Assembly (NCBI GenBank): GCA_903894975.1
Contig: CAITSE010000303.1
Location: 1-50,196, forward strand
Origin: an uncultured Lentisphaerota bacterium
GTDB lineage: Bacteria > Verrucomicrobiota > Lentisphaeria > Oligosphaerales > CAITYL01
Direction: 5' to 3'
DNA: 50,196 nt
Below the pieces are notes generated by a model. That model did not search any database. It worked only from the letters and a program-made list of their open reading frames with translations, and was not told where the DNA came from. The position numbers and the translations under genes were made by a program. Positions 1,370-11,796 of the stretch are shown piece by piece (position 1 is the first letter of the stretch; each line of letters starts with the position of its first letter).

Positions 1370-1824
1370 GCGAAAACAGCCAATTCATCCTCTACACCGC
1401 ACCGGATGGGGCGGTGAAAGTGGAGGTCTTCTACAAAGACGAAACCGTCTGGCTGACCCAGAAGGCATTGGCGGAATTGTTTGGCGTCCAGATCCCGGCC
1501 GTCAACAAGCACTTGGCGAACATTTTCGCGTCGGGAGAACTGACGCGGGAAGCAACTGTTTCCAAAATGGAAATAGTTCGCGACGAAGGGGGGCGTGAGG
1601 TACAACGCGAAGTGGAATTTTACAATCTCGACGCCATCATCGCCGTCGGCTACCGGGTAAACAGCTACCAGGCCACGCGGTTCCGCATCTGGGCAACCAA
1701 GACGCTGCGGGAATTCATCACCAAGGGCTTTGTGATGGATGACGAACGGTTGAAGCGCGGCAAGCAGCTCTTTGGCAAGGATTTCTTGACAGTTCAAACC
1801 CAAAGCAGACGAGGTCGGAAATGA
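1366..1824 (+). CDS. RhuM-like (virulence RhuM family) protein, apparently C-terminally truncated
   Basis: 152 aa with typical RhuM N-terminal text (VWLTQKALAELFGV...NKHLANIF..GEL...VSKMEIV...REVEFYNLDAIIAVGYRVNS..ATRFRIWATKTLREFITKGFVMDDERLK); stops where full-length family members continue. Start overlaps hsdM stop. Confidence 0.8.
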   Translation: MSENSQFILYTAPDGAVKVEVFYKDETVWLTQKALAELFGVQIPAVNKHLANIFASGELTREATVSKMEIVRDEGGREVQREVEFYNLDAIIAVGYRVNSYQATRFRIWATKTLREFITKGFVMDDERLKRGKQLFGKDFLTVQTQSRRGRK

Positions 1825-3239
1825 GCTATCCGACTTATCCTGAATATCGCGCCTCACGCTTCTTGGAAGCTGAAGGATTCCCAGCACGTAGCCGGTGGTT
1901 GAGCGAAGCGACACCACCGGACCGCCAACCCCAAATCAATTGCACCCCGGCAGGGGTGCCAGCAGGATGGGAAGAAAGGCGGTTGAAGTTCGTTGCCACC
2001 TGCAATGATGAGACCCTGCCAGAAACCACAGACCCTGATTTTGAGATCGCGTATGTAGACATTTCGAGTGTGAATTTGGTCGATGGCATTACCGCGGTGG
2101 AAGTCCTGCCTTTTGAGAAGGCTCCCTCGCGGGCAAGGCGCATCGTTAGAGAGGGTGACACCATCATCTCGACCGTGCGAACCTATCTCAAGGCAATCGC
2201 CCCCATCAAAGCCCCGCCGGACAACATGATCGTGTCCACCGGGTTTGCCGTTGTCCGCCCGCTTGAATTCCTTGCCCCCCAGTTTTTGGGCTACGCACTG
2301 CAAAACGCCACATTCATTGATGCCGTGGTCGCCAACTCCACCGGAGTGAGCTACCCGGCCATCAATCCGTCCACGCTTATCGGCCTAGTGGTCTCCTATC
2401 CAAAGAACGAAACCGAACAGCAACAAATCGCCGCGTTTCTGGATTGGAAGACGGGGCAGATTGACGCGCTGACAACCAAGAAGAAAGAGCTGCTGGAGAA
2501 GCTCAAGGAACAGCGCCGCGCGGTCATCACCCAGGCCGTCACCAAAGGCCTCAACACCGCCGCCCCTCTCCGCGATTCCGGCATCCCCTGGCTCGGACAG
2601 GTGCCGAAGCATTGGGAGGTCATTCCACTCGGATTTCTAATAACGATGTTAGGCGGCATGACCCCCAGCATGGCAAACTCGGAGTATTGGGAGGGTGACA
2701 TTCCCTGGGTAACTCCAAAGGATATGAAACAACCGCGGATTTCAGATTCCACCGACCGGATAACGGAGAAGGCCCTTGCGGAAACGTCAATCTCCTTGAT
2801 TCCGACACACACGGTTTTGGTGGTGGTAAGAGGTATGATATTAGCCCATTCCTTTCCAACCGCTGTTACAGAACGCCCTGTGACCATTAATCAAGATATG
2901 AAGGCTCTCCGGACTGGGGATAAGCTGGAAGTTGAATATTTATTTTGGTCTCTCGTTGGGTTCGGGAAAATATTCTCTGCCCTGGCTCAGGAGTCCGCAC
3001 ACGGCACTCGTAAAATGGAAACAGAGACGCTCAAGAAATTCACCTTCCCCGTGCCCCCGCGGAATGAACAGAAAGAAATTTCCCATGACCTTGAGAAACG
3101 ACTGAGGAAACTTGACAAGCTGGCACAAGCGACTGAAAGCACGATCGCCCGACTCACCGAATACCGCACCGCGCTGATCACCGCCGCGACCACCGGCAAG
3201 ATCGACGTGCGCGGCTGGCGGGGCGCCCGTGGAACATAA
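1821..3239 (+). CDS. hsdS: Type I restriction enzyme specificity subunit (HsdS)
   Basis: Two TRD-like halves with EQQQIAAFLDWKTGQIDALTTKKKELLEKLKEQRRAVITQAVTKGL and C-terminal LTEYRTALITAATTGKIDVR; ATGA overlap with the preceding ORF. Confidence 0.94.
   Translation: MSYPTYPEYRASRFLEAEGFPARSRWLSEATPPDRQPQINCTPAGVPAGWEERRLKFVATCNDETLPETTDPDFEIAYVDISSVNLVDGITAVEVLPFEKAPSRARRIVREGDTIISTVRTYLKAIAPIKAPPDNMIVSTGFAVVRPLEFLAPQFLGYALQNATFIDAVVANSTGVSYPAINPSTLIGLVVSYPKNETEQQQIAAFLDWKTGQIDALTTKKKELLEKLKEQRRAVITQAVTKGLNTAAPLRDSGIPWLGQVPKHWEVIPLGFLITMLGGMTPSMANSEYWEGDIPWVTPKDMKQPRISDSTDRITEKALAETSISLIPTHTVLVVVRGMILAHSFPTAVTERPVTINQDMKALRTGDKLEVEYLFWSLVGFGKIFSALAQESAHGTRKMETETLKKFTFPVPPRNEQKEISHDLEKRLRKLDKLAQATESTIARLTEYRTALITAATTGKIDVRGWRGARGT
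1892..1959. repeat. Two adjacent palindromes (CCGGTGGT/ACCACCGG and GCACCCC/GGGGTGC) inside the hsdS coding region
   Basis: Arms 1892-1899 with 1913-1920, and 1942-1948 with 1953-1959. Confidence 0.85.
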
Positions 3240-3295: not shown

Positions 3296-3730
3296 GTGAT
3301 TATGTTTCCCAAACGGACTACTTCCAACCCGAAACACCGCTTTGCCAAATCGCCGGCGAAGGCGGACTTGGAGCGCCTGGCGAAAGCGGTGCAGTACGGT
3401 GGCAATGGGGAGCACAAGCGAAATCCTGGAGATTTTGGCCTTCCTCCGCCATTGGGACCGCGCCCCGGCAAGACTCTTTGTGACGGAGCCAACATTTTTA
3501 AGCGCAAACTGGCGCTGAAGCTCTTGAAGGAAGGCATCCGGCGGGGCTTGGTGAGCGAGCAGGCGCGCAATGGTTTCCCGCAGAATATCTGGGCGGTCAG
3601 CGAGGAAGGCGTGCCGTTGGAAGCGCAGTTGGAAAACCGTAAAACCGGCGCCTACCACGGCTACCCGATGCTGGAGGACGACGCCTTCCGCGAGAAGGTC
3701 ATCGAGAAGTGGGGAGCCTTTCATGAATGA
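3296..3730 (+). CDS. Small conserved-looking hypothetical protein (144 aa) in the RM locus
   Basis: ORF between hsdS and the ImmA/IrrE-like ORF; 8-bp overlap with the next ORF indicates co-translation. Confidence 0.75.
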   Translation: MIMFPKRTTSNPKHRFAKSPAKADLERLAKAVQYGGNGEHKRNPGDFGLPPPLGPRPGKTLCDGANIFKRKLALKLLKEGIRRGLVSEQARNGFPQNIWAVSEEGVPLEAQLENRKTGAYHGYPMLEDDAFREKVIEKWGAFHE

Positions 3731-5045
3731 GGAATTGAAAATTGAGTGCAGGTGGCTGGGGCGTCAGACCGGCAGCCCGTTGGACCGTGCATTTTATGCG
3801 GATATCGGCCTGGCCGTGGGCAACAACTGGCTGACGCTTCTTGAAGATCAAGAAGCCAGCACCGTGACGAATCACCTGCGAGGCTGCGCCCATCGCCTGG
3901 CGACGTGGTTTGCAGCCAACTGGTGGAGGCTGCGCTGGGAACCGGAAACCCGCAGTTCCCAAAAGGACGCCGACTGGCGCATCGCCCATAGCATGGCCTC
4001 AGCCGGTGGGGGCTATGTCTGGCCCAACGTAATTTTTGCCAGCGATGGGGACAGTTTGGCGGTGGCATCCCGCCCCAGGATGAAGCCTGCCCCCTTTGAA
4101 CCGATCCGTTATCTGAACCAAATGGTTGCCCGCATCACGGCAGCGGAGTTCGAACGGAAAGTGGATGCCTTCCTGGAGTGCGTGCTCTCCCGCATGCATT
4201 CGCTGGGCATCGAGGACGATACACTTCCAGAACTTTGGTCGGAGGTGTTGAAGGAGCGTCGTGATCCCACCGCGAGCCAGTGGCGCAAGCTGGAGGCACT
4301 GTGTGGCTATGACCCGGACGATGCCCCGGCGGAGATCCTCGAACTGTTGATCGCGGATAAGGCTCGGCTGGGAGGCCAAGCCTTGGAGGAAGTGGCTGCC
4401 CAGGGACGACACTCCACCGCTGAAGTGTTGCAGTCAATCCTTGATCTCGCCAGCTCAAAGACAACGCCGGCGAGCGGGGGATTTCGCGGCAAGATGCCGA
4501 AGTTGACATCGTTGCAGAAAGATGATGCCAATGCACGGCCCTGGCAACGGGCCGCCAAACTCGCCCAACTGGCTCGAAAGGAATGGGGGCTGGGCAAGCA
4601 GCCGATCACCAACAGTCAATTAGCGGACCTGCTGGGAACCACCCCGGCAGTCTTTAGTGACCGGACCAAAGCGGCCACGCCCATGCCAATTGTACTGCGC
4701 ACAGAAACCGACGACGGCTTTGATCTTTACTTCGACAGATCATGGTCAACCAGCCGGCGCTTTGCCACCAGCCGGCTGCTGGGCGATCATCTTTGTTATT
4801 TCAATGGCGGACGATTGATCCCAGCGACGGACGCCAAAACTTCGAGGCAGCAGTTTCAACGGGCCTTTGCCCAAGAATTTTTGTGCCCGTTCGACGCCCT
4901 TTTGGAGAAAATACAGACAGACCAGCCGGATGATGAAGACATTGCGGAAGCCGCCGCTCATTTTGATGTGTCGACCTGGGTGGTGGAGACAACCTTGGTC
5001 AACAAAGGAGAGTTGGACCGCGAAGCTCTGAACTGGGTTGCCTGA
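3723..5045 (+). CDS. ImmA/IrrE-like protein with degenerate metallopeptidase motif
   Basis: C-terminus RRFATSRLLGDHL...QQFQRAFAQEFLCPFDALLEKI...IAEAAAHFDVSTWVVETTLVNKG resembles ImmA/IrrE proteins, but the HExxH position reads RLLGD; a helix-turn-helix-like segment (ITNSQLADLLGTTPAVF) precedes it. Confidence 0.72.
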   Translation: MNEELKIECRWLGRQTGSPLDRAFYADIGLAVGNNWLTLLEDQEASTVTNHLRGCAHRLATWFAANWWRLRWEPETRSSQKDADWRIAHSMASAGGGYVWPNVIFASDGDSLAVASRPRMKPAPFEPIRYLNQMVARITAAEFERKVDAFLECVLSRMHSLGIEDDTLPELWSEVLKERRDPTASQWRKLEALCGYDPDDAPAEILELLIADKARLGGQALEEVAAQGRHSTAEVLQSILDLASSKTTPASGGFRGKMPKLTSLQKDDANARPWQRAAKLAQLARKEWGLGKQPITNSQLADLLGTTPAVFSDRTKAATPMPIVLRTETDDGFDLYFDRSWSTSRRFATSRLLGDHLCYFNGGRLIPATDAKTSRQQFQRAFAQEFLCPFDALLEKIQTDQPDDEDIAEAAAHFDVSTWVVETTLVNKGELDREALNWVA

Positions 5046-5132
5046 ATCCGTTGACGTGCGGCGGCGTTGGCCTTTCTTCCACAAACCTTGAAAAGGTCAA
5101 CCGAGTGCTGGGCGAACAGAATTTTACGCTGA

Positions 5133-5190
5133 CCATTTTCTTATGTAAAGAAAATGGCAAAATTTTACCATAACCTTCCCATAAGGTAAA
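5133..5190. promoter_or_regulatory. Palindrome cluster upstream of hsdR (candidate operator/promoter region)
   Basis: Perfect 10-bp inverted repeat CCATTTTCTT-atgta-AAGAAAATGG (5133-5157), then ACCTT-cccat-AAGGT within TTTACC...GGTAAA (5164-5190); AT-rich island. Confidence 0.55.
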
Positions 5191-5221
5191 GTTGGCCTCC
5201 TCTGCCACTGGAAGAACCTTC

Positions 5222-8200
5222 ATGCCTGCCAATCAAAAGCACACCGAGGCCCGGCTGGAAGATGCGATTGTGGAGCACCTGACCACGCAGGGCGGGTATG
5301 TCTTGGTGGACTACACCAAGGGCGCGGCGGCGGGGCGGTATGACAAGGCGCGGGCACTGGATCCGGCGCTGCTGCTCGGCTTCATCCAGGCCACGCAAAA
5401 GAAGCCGTGGAAGAGCCTGACGGACATCCACGGCGCGGAAACCGGCAACGTGGTGCTGGACCACCTGGGCAAGGAGCTGGAAACCAAGGGGATGTTGAAG
5501 GTGCTGCGGCAGGGGTTCAAGTGCTATGGGAAAAACCTGCGCGTGGCCGTCTTCGCCCCCAGCAATCGGATGAACCCGGACACGCTGGCGCTCTATTCCC
5601 AAAACGTGCTGAGTGTGACGCGGCAGCTTTTCTACGGGGAGGCGCATGCCAAGTCGCTGGATCTGGCGTTGTTCCTCAATGGCCTGCCCATCGCCACGGT
5701 GGAACTGAAAAACCCGCTGTCCGGCCAGACCGTGGAAGATGCCGTCCGGCAATACAAGAAGGACCGGGACCCGCGGGAGCTGCTCTTTGATTTCAAGAAG
5801 CGCGCGCTGGTGCATTTCGCGGTGGATCAGGATCAGGTTTTCATGGCCACGCGGCTGAGCGGGGACAAGACGCATTTCCTCCCTTTCAACCTCGGCAACC
5901 AGGGGCACGCCGGAAATCCGCCGGCCGCCGATGGCGGCTACCGCACCGCCTATCTGTGGCGGGAAGTCTGGCAGCGGGACAGTCTGCTGGACATCCTGGG
6001 GCGCTTCATGCATCTCCAGATCGAGGAGAAGCGCATCCTCACCGACGAGGGAATCCGCAAGATCACCCGGGAGACCATGATCTTCCCCCGCTACCATCAG
6101 CTCGATTCCGTGCGCCGGCTGGTGGCGCATGCCCGGACGCATGGGCCGGGGCGGAACTACCTGATCCAGCACTCGGCCGGTTCGGGCAAGTCCAATTCCA
6201 TCGCCTGGCTGGCGCACCGGCTCTCCTGCCTGCATGACGCCGACGACAAGAAGGTTTTTGACTCGGTGATCGTGGTGACGGATCGCCGGGTGCTGGACCA
6301 GCAGCTCCAGAACACGATTTACCAGTTCGACCACAAACAGGGGGTGGTGCAGAAGGTGGATGAGGACACCCGGCAACTGGTGCAGGCCCTGGCCGGCGGC
6401 ACGCCGATCATCATCGCCACCCTGCAGAAATTCCCGTTCATCGTGGAAACCCTGGAAAAATTGCGAAAAGACGAGCCCTACGGCCTGGACATCCCCACCA
6501 AGGACAAACGCTTTGCCGTGATCGTGGACGAGGCGCACAGTTCGCAGTCCGGGGAAAGCGCCATGGAACTCAAGAGCGTCCTGAATGCCGAGGGCATCCA
6601 GGAAGCGACAGCGGCGTATGTCACGGAGCATGGGTTGGATGAGGACGAAGATGCGGATCACCTCGCCGGGGTGGTGCGGGAGATGCTGAAACGCAGCAAG
6701 CAGCCGAACCTGAGCTTCTTCGCCTTCACCGCGACGCCCAAATACAAGACGAAAAAGGTGTTTGACGAACCCGGCCCGTCGGGCGAATCGCCGTTCCATC
6801 TCTACACGATGCGGCAGGCGATCGAGGAGCGGTTCATCCTTGATGTGCTGAAGAACTACATCACCTACGAGGCGTATTTCCGCCTGGTTCAGGTCAGCGA
6901 CCAGGATCCGCATGTGGAGCGCAAACGGGCCGCCCGGGCGCTGGCCAGAACGTTGGCGCTCCACGCGGTCAATCTCCGCACCAAGACCGAGGTGATAGTG
7001 GAGCACTTCCGCACCCATGTGAAACACAAGATCGGCGGCCGCGCCAAGGCCATGGTGGTCACCGATTCGCGGCTTCAGGCCGTGCGCTACAAGCAATCCT
7101 TCGACAAGTACATTGCCGAAAAGGGCTATACGGACATCAAGGCACTCGTCGCCTTCTCGGGCGTGGTGGAAGACCCGGAGGCGCCGGGCAAGAACTGGAC
7201 GGAAGTCGGCATGAACGGCGGCATCAAGGAACGCGAGCTGCCGGAAAAGTTCGACAGTCACGAGTATCAGGTGCTGCTCGTGGCGGAGAAATATCAGACC
7301 GGCTACGACCAGCCATTGCTGCACACGATGTATGTCGACAAGAAGCTCACCGGCTTGCAGGCCGTGCAGACCCTTTCGCGCCTGAACCGGACCTGCGCCG
7401 GCAAGGAAGACACCTTCATCCTGGATTTCCGCAACACGCCGGAAGAAATCTTCAAGGCGTTCAAACCGTATTACGAAGACACGCCCGCCGAACCACTGAC
7501 GGACGCGCAGCACCTGTACCGGCTGCAACACCAGATCGAGGAGACCGGGCTGATCTTCACGGAGGAGGTCAAGGCGTTCTGCGCGGTCTATTTCAAGCCG
7601 CGCCGCAAAGAGACCGTGCTCGATCACGCGCAAATGAACGGCATTCTGGATCAGGCGGTGGAACGCTTCAAGGCCCGTCCGGAGGAAAAACGGGAAGAGG
7701 AAAAGGCGCTGCTGGTCAACTTCCGCAACCTGTACAGTTTCCTTTCCCAGGTGATTCCCTACCAGGACTCCGACTTGGAACAGCTTTACACCTACCTGCG
7801 CTTCCTGCTGACCAAACTGCCCCGGCGCGAGACCGGTCCAGGCTATCACCTGGAAGACGAAGTCGCCCTCCAATACTACCGACTGCAAAAGATCAGCGAA
7901 GGGCAAATCGATCTGAGCACGGGAGAAACGAAACCGTTGAAAGGCCCCAGCGATGTCGGCACGGGACAGGAGGATCAAAAGATCCGGCTCTCGGAACTCA
8001 TCGACATCCTCAACGAACGTTTCGGAACCGACTTCACCCAGGCCGACCAGCTCTTCTTTGACCAGATCCAAGAAGAAGCGATTGAGAGCGACACCCTCAA
8101 GAAAGCCGCCGTGACGAACTCGAAGGACGACTTCCGGTATGTGTTCGAGAAAGCCTTCGAGGGGCTGGTCATCGACCGCATGGAAGGCAACGAAGAAATC

Positions 8201-8311
8201 TTCGGGAAGCTCATGAGTGACGGTGAGTTCCGGAAGCTGGCCGTGGAACACCTGCTGCATAAGGTCTATGGCGCCCTGAAAGAGCCCAAAGGGGACGTGG
8301 CAACGCCATGA
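5222..8311 (+). CDS. hsdR: Type I restriction endonuclease subunit R (HsdR)
   Basis: Walker A GSGKSNSIAWLAHRLS, DEAH-like DEAHSSQSGES, helicase motifs FTATPKYKT and QTLSRLNRT; likely start MPANQKHTEARLE at 5222. Confidence 0.95.
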   Translation: MPANQKHTEARLEDAIVEHLTTQGGYVLVDYTKGAAAGRYDKARALDPALLLGFIQATQKKPWKSLTDIHGAETGNVVLDHLGKELETKGMLKVLRQGFKCYGKNLRVAVFAPSNRMNPDTLALYSQNVLSVTRQLFYGEAHAKSLDLALFLNGLPIATVELKNPLSGQTVEDAVRQYKKDRDPRELLFDFKKRALVHFAVDQDQVFMATRLSGDKTHFLPFNLGNQGHAGNPPAADGGYRTAYLWREVWQRDSLLDILGRFMHLQIEEKRILTDEGIRKITRETMIFPRYHQLDSVRRLVAHARTHGPGRNYLIQHSAGSGKSNSIAWLAHRLSCLHDADDKKVFDSVIVVTDRRVLDQQLQNTIYQFDHKQGVVQKVDEDTRQLVQALAGGTPIIIATLQKFPFIVETLEKLRKDEPYGLDIPTKDKRFAVIVDEAHSSQSGESAMELKSVLNAEGIQEATAAYVTEHGLDEDEDADHLAGVVREMLKRSKQPNLSFFAFTATPKYKTKKVFDEPGPSGESPFHLYTMRQAIEERFILDVLKNYITYEAYFRLVQVSDQDPHVERKRAARALARTLALHAVNLRTKTEVIVEHFRTHVKHKIGGRAKAMVVTDSRLQAVRYKQSFDKYIAEKGYTDIKALVAFSGVVEDPEAPGKNWTEVGMNGGIKERELPEKFDSHEYQVLLVAEKYQTGYDQPLLHTMYVDKKLTGLQAVQTLSRLNRTCAGKEDTFILDFRNTPEEIFKAFKPYYEDTPAEPLTDAQHLYRLQHQIEETGLIFTEEVKAFCAVYFKPRRKETVLDHAQMNGILDQAVERFKARPEEKREEEKALLVNFRNLYSFLSQVIPYQDSDLEQLYTYLRFLLTKLPRRETGPGYHLEDEVALQYYRLQKISEGQIDLSTGETKPLKGPSDVGTGQEDQKIRLSELIDILNERFGTDFTQADQLFFDQIQEEAIESDTLKKAAVTNSKDDFRYVFEKAFEGLVIDRMEGNEEIFGKLMSDGEFRKLAVEHLLHKVYGALKEPKGDVATP

Positions 8312-8356: not shown

Positions 8357-10372
8357 TTATTTGGGGCTGGTGCCCCCGGGCCAGTCGTCGGTGCGGAACG
8401 GGGCGGCCGGCAGGCCGGTGGCGTTGGTCAGATTGCAGGCCGGGTTGTTGGCCCAGGCGTACCGTACCGCCAGGGGCGCCGCCACGTCCGGGGCGGAGAC
8501 AACTACCGCGACGCCATCAAGGCGAGCAGTGGCCCACTTGAACTTCCGGTCGCTGCCGGCGATGGCGAAGCCGACTAGTTCCTTCCCGTCCGCGCTCTTT
8601 AGCCCGACCGCATCGTCGAAGGCCAGACGGATCGCGCCGCCCTCGACCGTCTGCGCCCGGAAGCGCGGCCCGGAGGCGGCGACTGGCAGGCGGTAAACCT
8701 GGGCCTCGGCCGTCAGCGCCAGACGTTTGCCCACATCCTGCTTGTTGAGCGGGTGAACGTTGTCCGCCTCGCCGATGTCGATGGTGATCGCCAGGCCGCA
8801 GTTCGGAACCTGGCGCGCGGTCAGGGACTGCGCCTCGCGCATTTCGGCCCAGGCCGACATTTCCGGCCGTGTGCCGCGGCCCATGTGGTTGGGCAGTTGC
8901 ACGACCAGGAACGGAAGGTCGCCCTGTTCAAGGCGCCCGCGCCAGTCGCGGATCAGCGCCGGCAACAGCGTGCGGTATTGCCAGGCGGCGTCGGTATTGC
9001 TCTCGCCCTGGTACCAGAGGATGCCGGTCAGTGTGAGCGGCAGCAGCGGCGCGATCATGCCGTTGTACAGCGAGGTGATGCCCGGGACCCGGTCATACCG
9101 CACCGGCGCCGGCGGAGCGGCGGCAAAGGCCGTGCCCAGGCGCAGCTTCCACACGCCGGCCAGCGGCGCCGGCGGCAGCCCTTCCGGGGTCAGCGCCAGT
9201 TCCTCGGCCTTTCCGGTCAGGCCGCATTCGCCGTCCAGGCAGACCAGGCGCACGGCGACCGTGTTGCGCCCGGCCCGCAGCAATCCGGCCGGCACGCGCT
9301 GTTTGCGGAACCAGTTGACCGATTCGCTGTCGCCAACGCTTTTGCCATTGATCCACGCCGCATTCATATCCTTCACTCGGATGAGATTCAGCATACCGCC
9401 TTTGCCGGCCGCCTCCGCGGGCAGGTTGAAATCGCGGCGCAGCCAGATCGTTCCCGTGAAATCCGGGGGTACGGCCTTGGCTTCTTTAAGCTTGGCGGGA
9501 AGAGTGACGTCGCGCCAATCGGCGGCAGTGGATGCCTCGGGATCCGCCCAGGGCGCGGGGTCGCCGGCGGAGCCAGGATCGTTGGCCCGGTACCACTCGC
9601 GAATCAGGGTGTCGTAGTCCTTGCCGGTGCGGGCCTGCTGCTCACGACAGCGCGCGACCAGTTCCTGGAAACGGGTGACCGGTGCCGCGAACTCCGGCAT
9701 GGGCGACAGCGCCTCCGGGCTGACCCAGCACTCCGCGCGGGTGCCGCCGTACGAGCTGTTGACCAGGCCGATGGGCACCTGAAGATCCTGGTGCACCTGC
9801 CGGGCGAAGAAATACCCGACCGCGGTGAAATTGCTTACGGTTCCCGGCGTGCATGCCACCCATTTGGCCGAACTCAGCGCCTGCTGCGGTTGCGGCTCGC
9901 CGGCGATCACGCGTCCGACCGCCAACTGGCGAATGCGCGGCCAGTTGGCGGCGGCCTTCTCCGCCGCCGCGTCTTTCGCTCCCGACACGGTGAATTCCAT
10001 GTTCGACTGGCCGGAGCACAGCCAGACGTCGCCGACCAGCACATCCGTGGAGGTGCTGCACCGGATTCCGGCCGCGGCTTCCAGGACATGCGGTCCGCCG
10101 GCCGGCAGCGGGCCGAGCCGCGTCAGCCACCGGCCATCCGTCCCGGCGACGGCCGTGGCGGTCGCGTTCGCCGGCAGGTTGGGACCGCGAAGCGTCACCG
10201 TCACGGCGGCTCCCGGATCGGCCCACCCCCACAACACCGCCGGGCGGTCCCGTTGCAGCACCGTATGGTCGCCAAATAGCGGTGAGAGCAGCGGCCTGGT
10301 GGCGGCGACCGGTTCGACGGCAGACACGGAGACGGCAACCGCCAACAGGAAAAACAGATGCAGGAATTTCAT
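8357..10372 (-). CDS. Secreted sialate O-acetylesterase-like SGNH hydrolase
   Basis: Signal peptide MKFLHLFFLLAVAVSVSA; GQSNMEFTVSGA, LVNSSYGGTRAECWVSPE, LWYQGESN typical of sialate O-acetylesterases. Confidence 0.9.
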   Translation of the reverse strand: MKFLHLFFLLAVAVSVSAVEPVAATRPLLSPLFGDHTVLQRDRPAVLWGWADPGAAVTVTLRGPNLPANATATAVAGTDGRWLTRLGPLPAGGPHVLEAAAGIRCSTSTDVLVGDVWLCSGQSNMEFTVSGAKDAAAEKAAANWPRIRQLAVGRVIAGEPQPQQALSSAKWVACTPGTVSNFTAVGYFFARQVHQDLQVPIGLVNSSYGGTRAECWVSPEALSPMPEFAAPVTRFQELVARCREQQARTGKDYDTLIREWYRANDPGSAGDPAPWADPEASTAADWRDVTLPAKLKEAKAVPPDFTGTIWLRRDFNLPAEAAGKGGMLNLIRVKDMNAAWINGKSVGDSESVNWFRKQRVPAGLLRAGRNTVAVRLVCLDGECGLTGKAEELALTPEGLPPAPLAGVWKLRLGTAFAAAPPAPVRYDRVPGITSLYNGMIAPLLPLTLTGILWYQGESNTDAAWQYRTLLPALIRDWRGRLEQGDLPFLVVQLPNHMGRGTRPEMSAWAEMREAQSLTARQVPNCGLAITIDIGEADNVHPLNKQDVGKRLALTAEAQVYRLPVAASGPRFRAQTVEGGAIRLAFDDAVGLKSADGKELVGFAIAGSDRKFKWATARLDGVAVVVSAPDVAAPLAVRYAWANNPACNLTNATGLPAAPFRTDDWPGGTSPK

Positions 10373-10701: not shown

Positions 10702-11796
10702 ATGACGGACATGAGAACAGGCGTCGCCGCGGATTACGCCGCCGAACTCGACCGCGCCGCCAGCATGATCAACGACTTGCTGCACCGGGAAACCCTGCCT
10801 GGCACCGTGCGGCCCGCCGCCCTGGCCGACGCGGTACGCGCCTACCCGGAACGATGCGGGAAACGTCTCCGCCCCGCCCTGCTCCTGTGGAGCTGCGGCC
10901 TGGTCGGCGGCGATCCGGCCAAGGCCCGACATGCCGCTCTGGCCGTCGAACTCTATCACAACTGGACCTTGGTCCATGATGACATCATCGACCGCGACGA
11001 GACTCGCCGCGGCCAGCCCGCCTGCCAGGTGCTGCTGCGCGAATCCTATCCCGGCGCCCGGAAAACCGGCGCCGCCGCCAAACGTCACGGCTGCGACCAG
11101 GCCATGCTCGCCGGCGACATCCAGCACGGCTGGGCGGTCGACACGCTGGCTCGCGGCACCGGGGACGGTATCCGCCCGGAGATCGCCCTGGCCCTGGTCC
11201 GCCGGCTCTGCGGCACCCTGACCCCGGCCCTGCTCAGCGGCGAGGCACTCGACGTCGAGTTCGCCGCCGGCAAAGCCATGCCTTCGGCCACCGCTATCGA
11301 ACACATGATCGCCCTGAAAACTGGCGCGCTATTACGTTTCGCGGCCCAAGCTGGAGTCCTTATTGGATTGGATTCCAGTGACTTCGATTGCCAGGAGGCC
11401 CGCAACCTTGGCGACTTCGCCGAAAACGCCGGCGTCGCCTTCCAGCTTCTGGACGATTGGCTCGGTGTGTTCGGAGACAGCGCTGAACTCGGCAAGCCCG
11501 TCGGCGCCGACCTGCGCGAGGGCAAGAAAACCCTCCTGCTCTGCCATGCCCTGACCATGGCCACACCCGCGGCCCGGCGCGAACTCCGCCGCCTGGCGGG
11601 AAATCCCCGCCTCGATGCCGCCGGCCTTGACCGCGCCCGCACCCTGATCCGCGACTCCGGCGCCGAAACCGCCCTCCTGACCAACGCCCGCCGCCTGGCG
11701 GACTCCGCGCAAAACCTGCTCCTCGCCTTCCCCGCCAACCCCTACCGCGACCGGCTCGGCGCTTGGCTCAACGCCCTCGTCAACCGCCGGCGGTGA
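10702..11796 (+). CDS. Polyprenyl synthetase family protein
   Basis: First Asp-rich motif LVHDDIIDRDETRRGQP and second FQLLDDWLGVFGD; GKRLRPALLLWSC. Confidence 0.92.
   Translation: MTDMRTGVAADYAAELDRAASMINDLLHRETLPGTVRPAALADAVRAYPERCGKRLRPALLLWSCGLVGGDPAKARHAALAVELYHNWTLVHDDIIDRDETRRGQPACQVLLRESYPGARKTGAAAKRHGCDQAMLAGDIQHGWAVDTLARGTGDGIRPEIALALVRRLCGTLTPALLSGEALDVEFAAGKAMPSATAIEHMIALKTGALLRFAAQAGVLIGLDSSDFDCQEARNLGDFAENAGVAFQLLDDWLGVFGDSAELGKPVGADLREGKKTLLLCHALTMATPAARRELRRLAGNPRLDAAGLDRARTLIRDSGAETALLTNARRLADSAQNLLLAFPANPYRDRLGAWLNALVNRRR

Follow-up and report, generated by a model that had tools for sequence, protein, structure and literature searches.

The question raised by this locus is whether two overlapping genes found inside a type I restriction-modification (RM) operon serve that operon or form a unit of their own. 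The operon lies at the beginning of the window, by which we mean the whole 50,196-nucleotide stretch of DNA that was analysed, and the two genes, termed P1 and P2 here, had been proposed in an earlier note to be a toxin-antitoxin-like module, an anti-suicide control or an accessory defence module coupled to the RM system. The layout described there is confirmed, as ORF calls give two co-oriented ORFs, of 144 and 440 aa, that share 8 bp (3723-3730), and a Methylase_S protein is encoded upstream and an HsdR protein downstream, placing the pair between hsdS and hsdR. The features of the region are as follows.

2-1369, hsdM, its 5' end cut by the contig start
1366-1824, truncated rhuM, between hsdM and hsdS
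1821-3239, forward strand, hsdS, with a Methylase_S match
3302-3730, forward strand, P1, a 142-aa basic protein (pI 9.7), putative toxin, for which the ATG start is the likelier
3723-5045, forward strand, P2, a 440-aa acidic protein (pI 5.3), putative antitoxin
4539-5012, forward strand, M78 (IrrE/ImmA/CapP-type) domain of P2, about residues 273-430
5046-5191, no strand, AT-rich palindromic gap upstream of hsdR
5192-8311, forward strand, hsdR, with an HsdR match

The longest ORF for P1 (3296-3730, 144 aa) begins with GTG and, since homologues begin at an ATG two codons further downstream, P1 most likely extends from 3302 to 3730 and encodes 142 aa. A longer in-frame start is also available to P2 (491-aa ORF), the ATG of the 440-aa form being the conserved one. 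In comparison with the pair at locus L002, codon positions 1, 2 and 3 differ by 24%, 23% and 61% in P1 and by 24%, 15% and 54% in P2, and the far more frequent differences at position 3 show that both genes are under protein-level selection. No Rfam RNA was detected in the first 12 kb of the window. hsdM and hsdS are also kept apart, by the truncated rhuM (1366-1824), a decayed restriction-linked gene of only 152 aa which ends in unrelated residues running into the hsdS start, intact copies in L064 and L071 being 333-356 aa in length.

Intact P1 is located directly upstream of P2 at 18 loci, with the two genes meeting or overlapping within a few bases at most of them. P2 relatives span three phyla, represented by Verrucomicrobiota, a Planctomycetes MAG and Pseudomonadota plasmids, plus a viral contig, the one relative of the pair found among viral contigs, with none found in phage records. 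Distribution is patchy, the pair being present in 9 of 388 Verrucomicrobiota genomes, and several copies are carried on plasmids. A type I RM operon setting is observed for two of the 18 intact pairs, those of the window and L023. The survey of neighbourhoods for which the earlier note had called gave a divided answer, association with recognisable defence or toxin-antitoxin genes holding at about half of the loci and failing at the other half. P1-P2 adjoins Cas1-Cas2 in L003, Cas3 in L024, DptFGH and a HipA pair in L006, restriction endonucleases in L032, an IrrE/HTH pair in L030 and RhuM in L029, while no defence gene was recognised next to the pairs in L002, L009, L010, L025, L026 and L028. 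The stable two-gene operon and mobile, patchy distribution characteristic of toxin-antitoxin modules are both observed, and the consistent linkage to hsd genes characteristic of a dedicated type I RM accessory is not (2/18). On this distribution, P1-P2 is an autonomous, mobile two-gene unit and not a part of the RM system. Upstream of P1-P2 in L023 a chimeric ORF (9177-9545) is composed of the HTH start of the adjacent HTH-IrrE protein, which is present in full at 11490, fused to an HsdS C-terminal end, indicating that recombination has shuffled this slot. Just downstream of P1-P2 on an Allorhizobium plasmid (L008:16775-18126) lies another unannotated pair, of 98 and 352 aa, with no Pfam family above its cut-off.

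If the pair were a regulator or an anti-suicide control dedicated to the type I RM system, modulating how HsdR works or is expressed, this would account for its location between hsdS and hsdR, its reappearance in an RM operon in L023 and the palindromes before hsdR. By a rough estimate, based on related hsdR genes in 59 of 378 genomes (some twice), ∼0.01 such loci would be expected by chance among the remaining nine of the sample. This explanation is nevertheless very improbable, as 16 of the 18 intact pairs lie outside RM operons, the palindrome is not common to other P1-P2 loci and the closest RM relative, L064 (HsdR 79-80%), has no pair, its hsdS and hsdR overlapping with nothing between. 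In addition, the window and L023 pairs are not joined in a supported clade of the P2 tree, so that a shared origin of these two pairs finds no support there. Thus the coupling to the RM system, or anti-suicide control, put forward earlier is unsupported, since so few intact pairs reside in RM operons.

The palindromes reported previously in the gap before hsdR were recovered within 5046-5191, comprising a perfect repeat with 10+10 arms (5133-5157) and two imperfect repeats (5140-5185 and 5161-5193). No second copy was found in the genome and none beside other P1-P2 loci, and for this reason an operator belonging to the module itself was rejected. If the palindrome is an operator it would belong to this hsdR and not to P1-P2, and the gap palindromes are possibly an hsdR operator.

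The contents of the hsdS-hsdR slot were surveyed in 20 further RM loci with a related HsdR, several of them cut by contig ends. HTH-M78/DUF4411 genes are present in L067, L071 and L082, HigB/HTH-M78 in L070, AAA/RloB-like genes in L073 and other single genes in L068, L075-L079 and L081, and the slot is empty in L064, L074 and L080. The overlap of hsdS and hsdR in L064 indicates that this locus has nothing in the slot, which in the window contains about 2 kb. Gene order in L070 is that of the window, a small toxin gene first and an overlapping gene for an M78 protein second. The hsdS-hsdR gap in this Verrucomicrobiota type I RM family is repeatedly occupied by toxin-antitoxin-like pairs (L067, L070, L071, L073, L082). 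In EPEC, the toxin-antitoxin pair DarTG2 is located between hsdS and hsdR (PMC12255303), the same position, although its protein families differ from those of P1-P2.

Presence of the two genes is asymmetric. In one Verrucomicrobiota sample P1 and P2 occur in the same 9 genomes and P1 alone in none, and intact P1 lacking P2 was not found at all in the Verrucomicrobiota sample and plasmids. Conversely, P2 lacking an intact P1 is observed at three loci, a small number, P1 being absent in L004 and L031 and interrupted in L005, where it is stopped by a TGA at conserved W97. Two Acidithiobacillus plasmids carry N-terminal P2 remnants, one of them with a P1 fragment. On these small numbers, the pair conforms to the pattern in which a toxin is never present without its antitoxin.

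A second indication of the role of P2 comes from R. etli pRetIE4771b, in which a TumE toxin gene (PF20126) is followed directly by a gene fusing an N-terminal winged HTH to a P2 domain of full length (hhalign 99.8%, E=4e-30, 363 columns), the single TumE-linked case found. TumE-TumA is an experimentally validated toxin-antitoxin pair (PMC10584680), and the occurrence of the P2 domain directly behind TumE suggests that P2 is able to take the place of an antitoxin beside an unrelated toxin. P1 itself is not detectably related to TumE, hhalign probability against R. etli TumE being 0.3%. The R. etli locus (L092:5135-7098) represents an unusual TumA-P2 antitoxin architecture. These observations bear on a reversal of roles, in which P2 would be the effector, through its N-terminal WWRL domain, and P1 an antitoxin or regulator of small size that binds nucleic acid. 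The size, charge and leading position of P1 are those of many antitoxins, but the reversal is unlikely given that P2 is intact where P1 has been lost or stopped, that P1 is never seen without P2, that a P2 homologue holds the antitoxin position beside TumE and that in other systems the M78 protein is the antitoxin.

P1 and its relatives gave no match above chance in Pfam, NCBIfam, PADLOC or PHROGs. Alignment of 18 relatives reveals the pattern Y32, H38-K39, C60, P93, W97 and Y118-(H/K)-G-(Y/W)-P122, in which Y32, H38-K39, C60, P93, Y118 and P122 are common to all and W97 and G120 are nearly invariant. P1 is basic in all 18 cases (pI 8.6-10.2) and P2 is acidic at every locus compared. The AF2 model of P1, of moderate quality (pLDDT 72.7), comprises helices, a three-stranded sheet and a final helix; the alignments behind the structure models were shallow, containing 4 and 6 sequences with relatives from the genome searches left out. 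No match with E below 0.3 was obtained for the P1 model against the PDB and viral folds. The match to a chain of a CDI complex (5t87, prob 0.28) lacks the strength to be informative, and a colicin/RelE-type nuclease fold for P1 consequently stays a guess. The P1 profile gave only chance matches to PDB sequences, for example hemerythrin, and comparison with HigB indicated that the two are unrelated.

P2 consists of an N-terminal 'WWRL..E' domain, in which W68 and R69 are invariant, a helical middle and a C-terminal M78-type pseudoprotease. The N-terminal domain has no family match and P2 belongs to no confident Pfam, NCBIfam or PHROG family, Pfam Peptidase_M78 matching weakly (E=0.0023) and rising above its curated cut-off in the relative in L010. 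By fold and sequence relationship, however, the C-terminal half is of the M78 (ImmA/IrrE/CapP) type, aligning with genuine M78 proteins at 96.5% by hhalign (E=8e-10) and having CapP (7t5t, prob 1.00) and Deinococcus IrrE (3dti, prob 0.92) as its best Foldseek matches. At the zinc site, R351-L-L-G-D355 stands in place of HExxH, and Q376 in place of the E that is the third ligand. HExxH is retained in none of the 22 P2 relatives, R. etli fusion included, and in all 22 the first His is Arg and the third-ligand Glu is Gln; the C-terminal domain is, by its sequence, a conserved pseudoprotease. No HTH above cut-off was detected in the window P2. Profile matches between P2 and apolipoprotein E are probably artefacts of helical sequence.

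Among known systems, RosmerTA provides experimentally confirmed antitoxins that are M78-domain (ImmA) proteins, and in the D25/ImmA antitoxin group gene order is toxin-first in 58% (PMC10440598). P1-P2 resembles RosmerTA (RmrT-RmrA) in being a two-gene unit with an M78-domain protein and in the toxin-first order common there, and PADLOC RmrA matches P2 weakly (E=2e-4), the match being confined to residues 259-298. In contrast to RosmerTA, P2 lacks HExxH, has no detected HTH and carries an additional N-terminal domain, and none of the PADLOC models, including RmrT, matches P1. Absence of the zinc site, together with a P1 that is not an RmrT, indicates that P1-P2 is not a RosmerTA member as defined. 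COG2856 modules (HTH plus Zn peptidase) with PIN/DUF4411 or RelE/HigB toxins have a similar C-terminal domain (PMC2701414) and occupy the same hsdS-hsdR slot in sister RM operons, but keep the active-site motif that is lost in P2, and their small partner protein is unrelated to P1. The closest solved fold to the C-terminal half of P2 is that of CapP, the M78 protease of CBASS. CapP is an active zinc protease, and CapH-CapP controls CBASS. On this model the pseudo-M78 P2 would sense infection, with P1 as a partner required for signalling, and classic toxin-antitoxin neutralisation would not be involved. The CapP fold match and the frequent defence neighbours are consistent with such a role, which is nonetheless quite unlikely, as CapP acts through a zinc site that P2 does not have, many of the pairs are solitary, having no defence operon behind them to control, and P1 has no HTH family match.

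Overall, P1-P2 is probably (about 0.7) a toxin-antitoxin-like module of the M78-antitoxin kind with P1 as the toxin. This part of the earlier three-way proposal is supported by the mobility of the pair, the partner asymmetry, the TumE partner swap and the presence of toxin-antitoxin pairs in the same slot of sister operons, and the part concerning RM coupling or anti-suicide control is not upheld. Pairing, mobility, pseudoprotease, partner swap and slot are properties of the sequences themselves; the toxicity, neutralisation, trigger and anti-phage role that we infer for P1-P2 would take the following form. The pair would be carried as cargo in a type I RM operon slot into which modules of this sort are repeatedly inserted. 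P1, a small basic protein, would most likely be the toxin, acting, at a guess, as an RNase or other translation poison. P2, acidic and with a C-terminal domain descended from M78 (ImmA/IrrE) proteases, would most likely be the antitoxin and, since its zinc site has been lost, should act by binding and sequestering P1 and not by any cleavage. The other domain or domains of P2 would be a probable sensor releasing P1, for example on phage infection or element loss. Against the toxin-antitoxin reading, P2 is large for an antitoxin and has no HTH above cut-off, and P1 lacks a fold or family match. More tentatively, and at somewhat less than even odds, P1 and P2 may be the founders of two new families, of toxins and of M78-pseudoprotease antitoxins respectively, together forming a phage-responsive abortive-infection system whose location shifts among plasmids, defence islands and the slot between hsdS and hsdR.

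If correct, this would add a toxin family without known relatives and an antitoxin that has kept the M78 protease fold and lost its chemistry, suggesting that the binding role of M78 antitoxins is separable from their protease role. The hsdS-hsdR junction of Verrucomicrobiota type I RM operons would likewise be a docking slot for exchangeable toxin-antitoxin pairs, and as such could be mined for others. Several such RM operons encode, between hsdM and hsdS, a recurrent 307-325 aa protein beginning MSDI(K/R)LFR, examples being L074:9341-10264 and L071:7127-8104 (reverse-complement coordinates).
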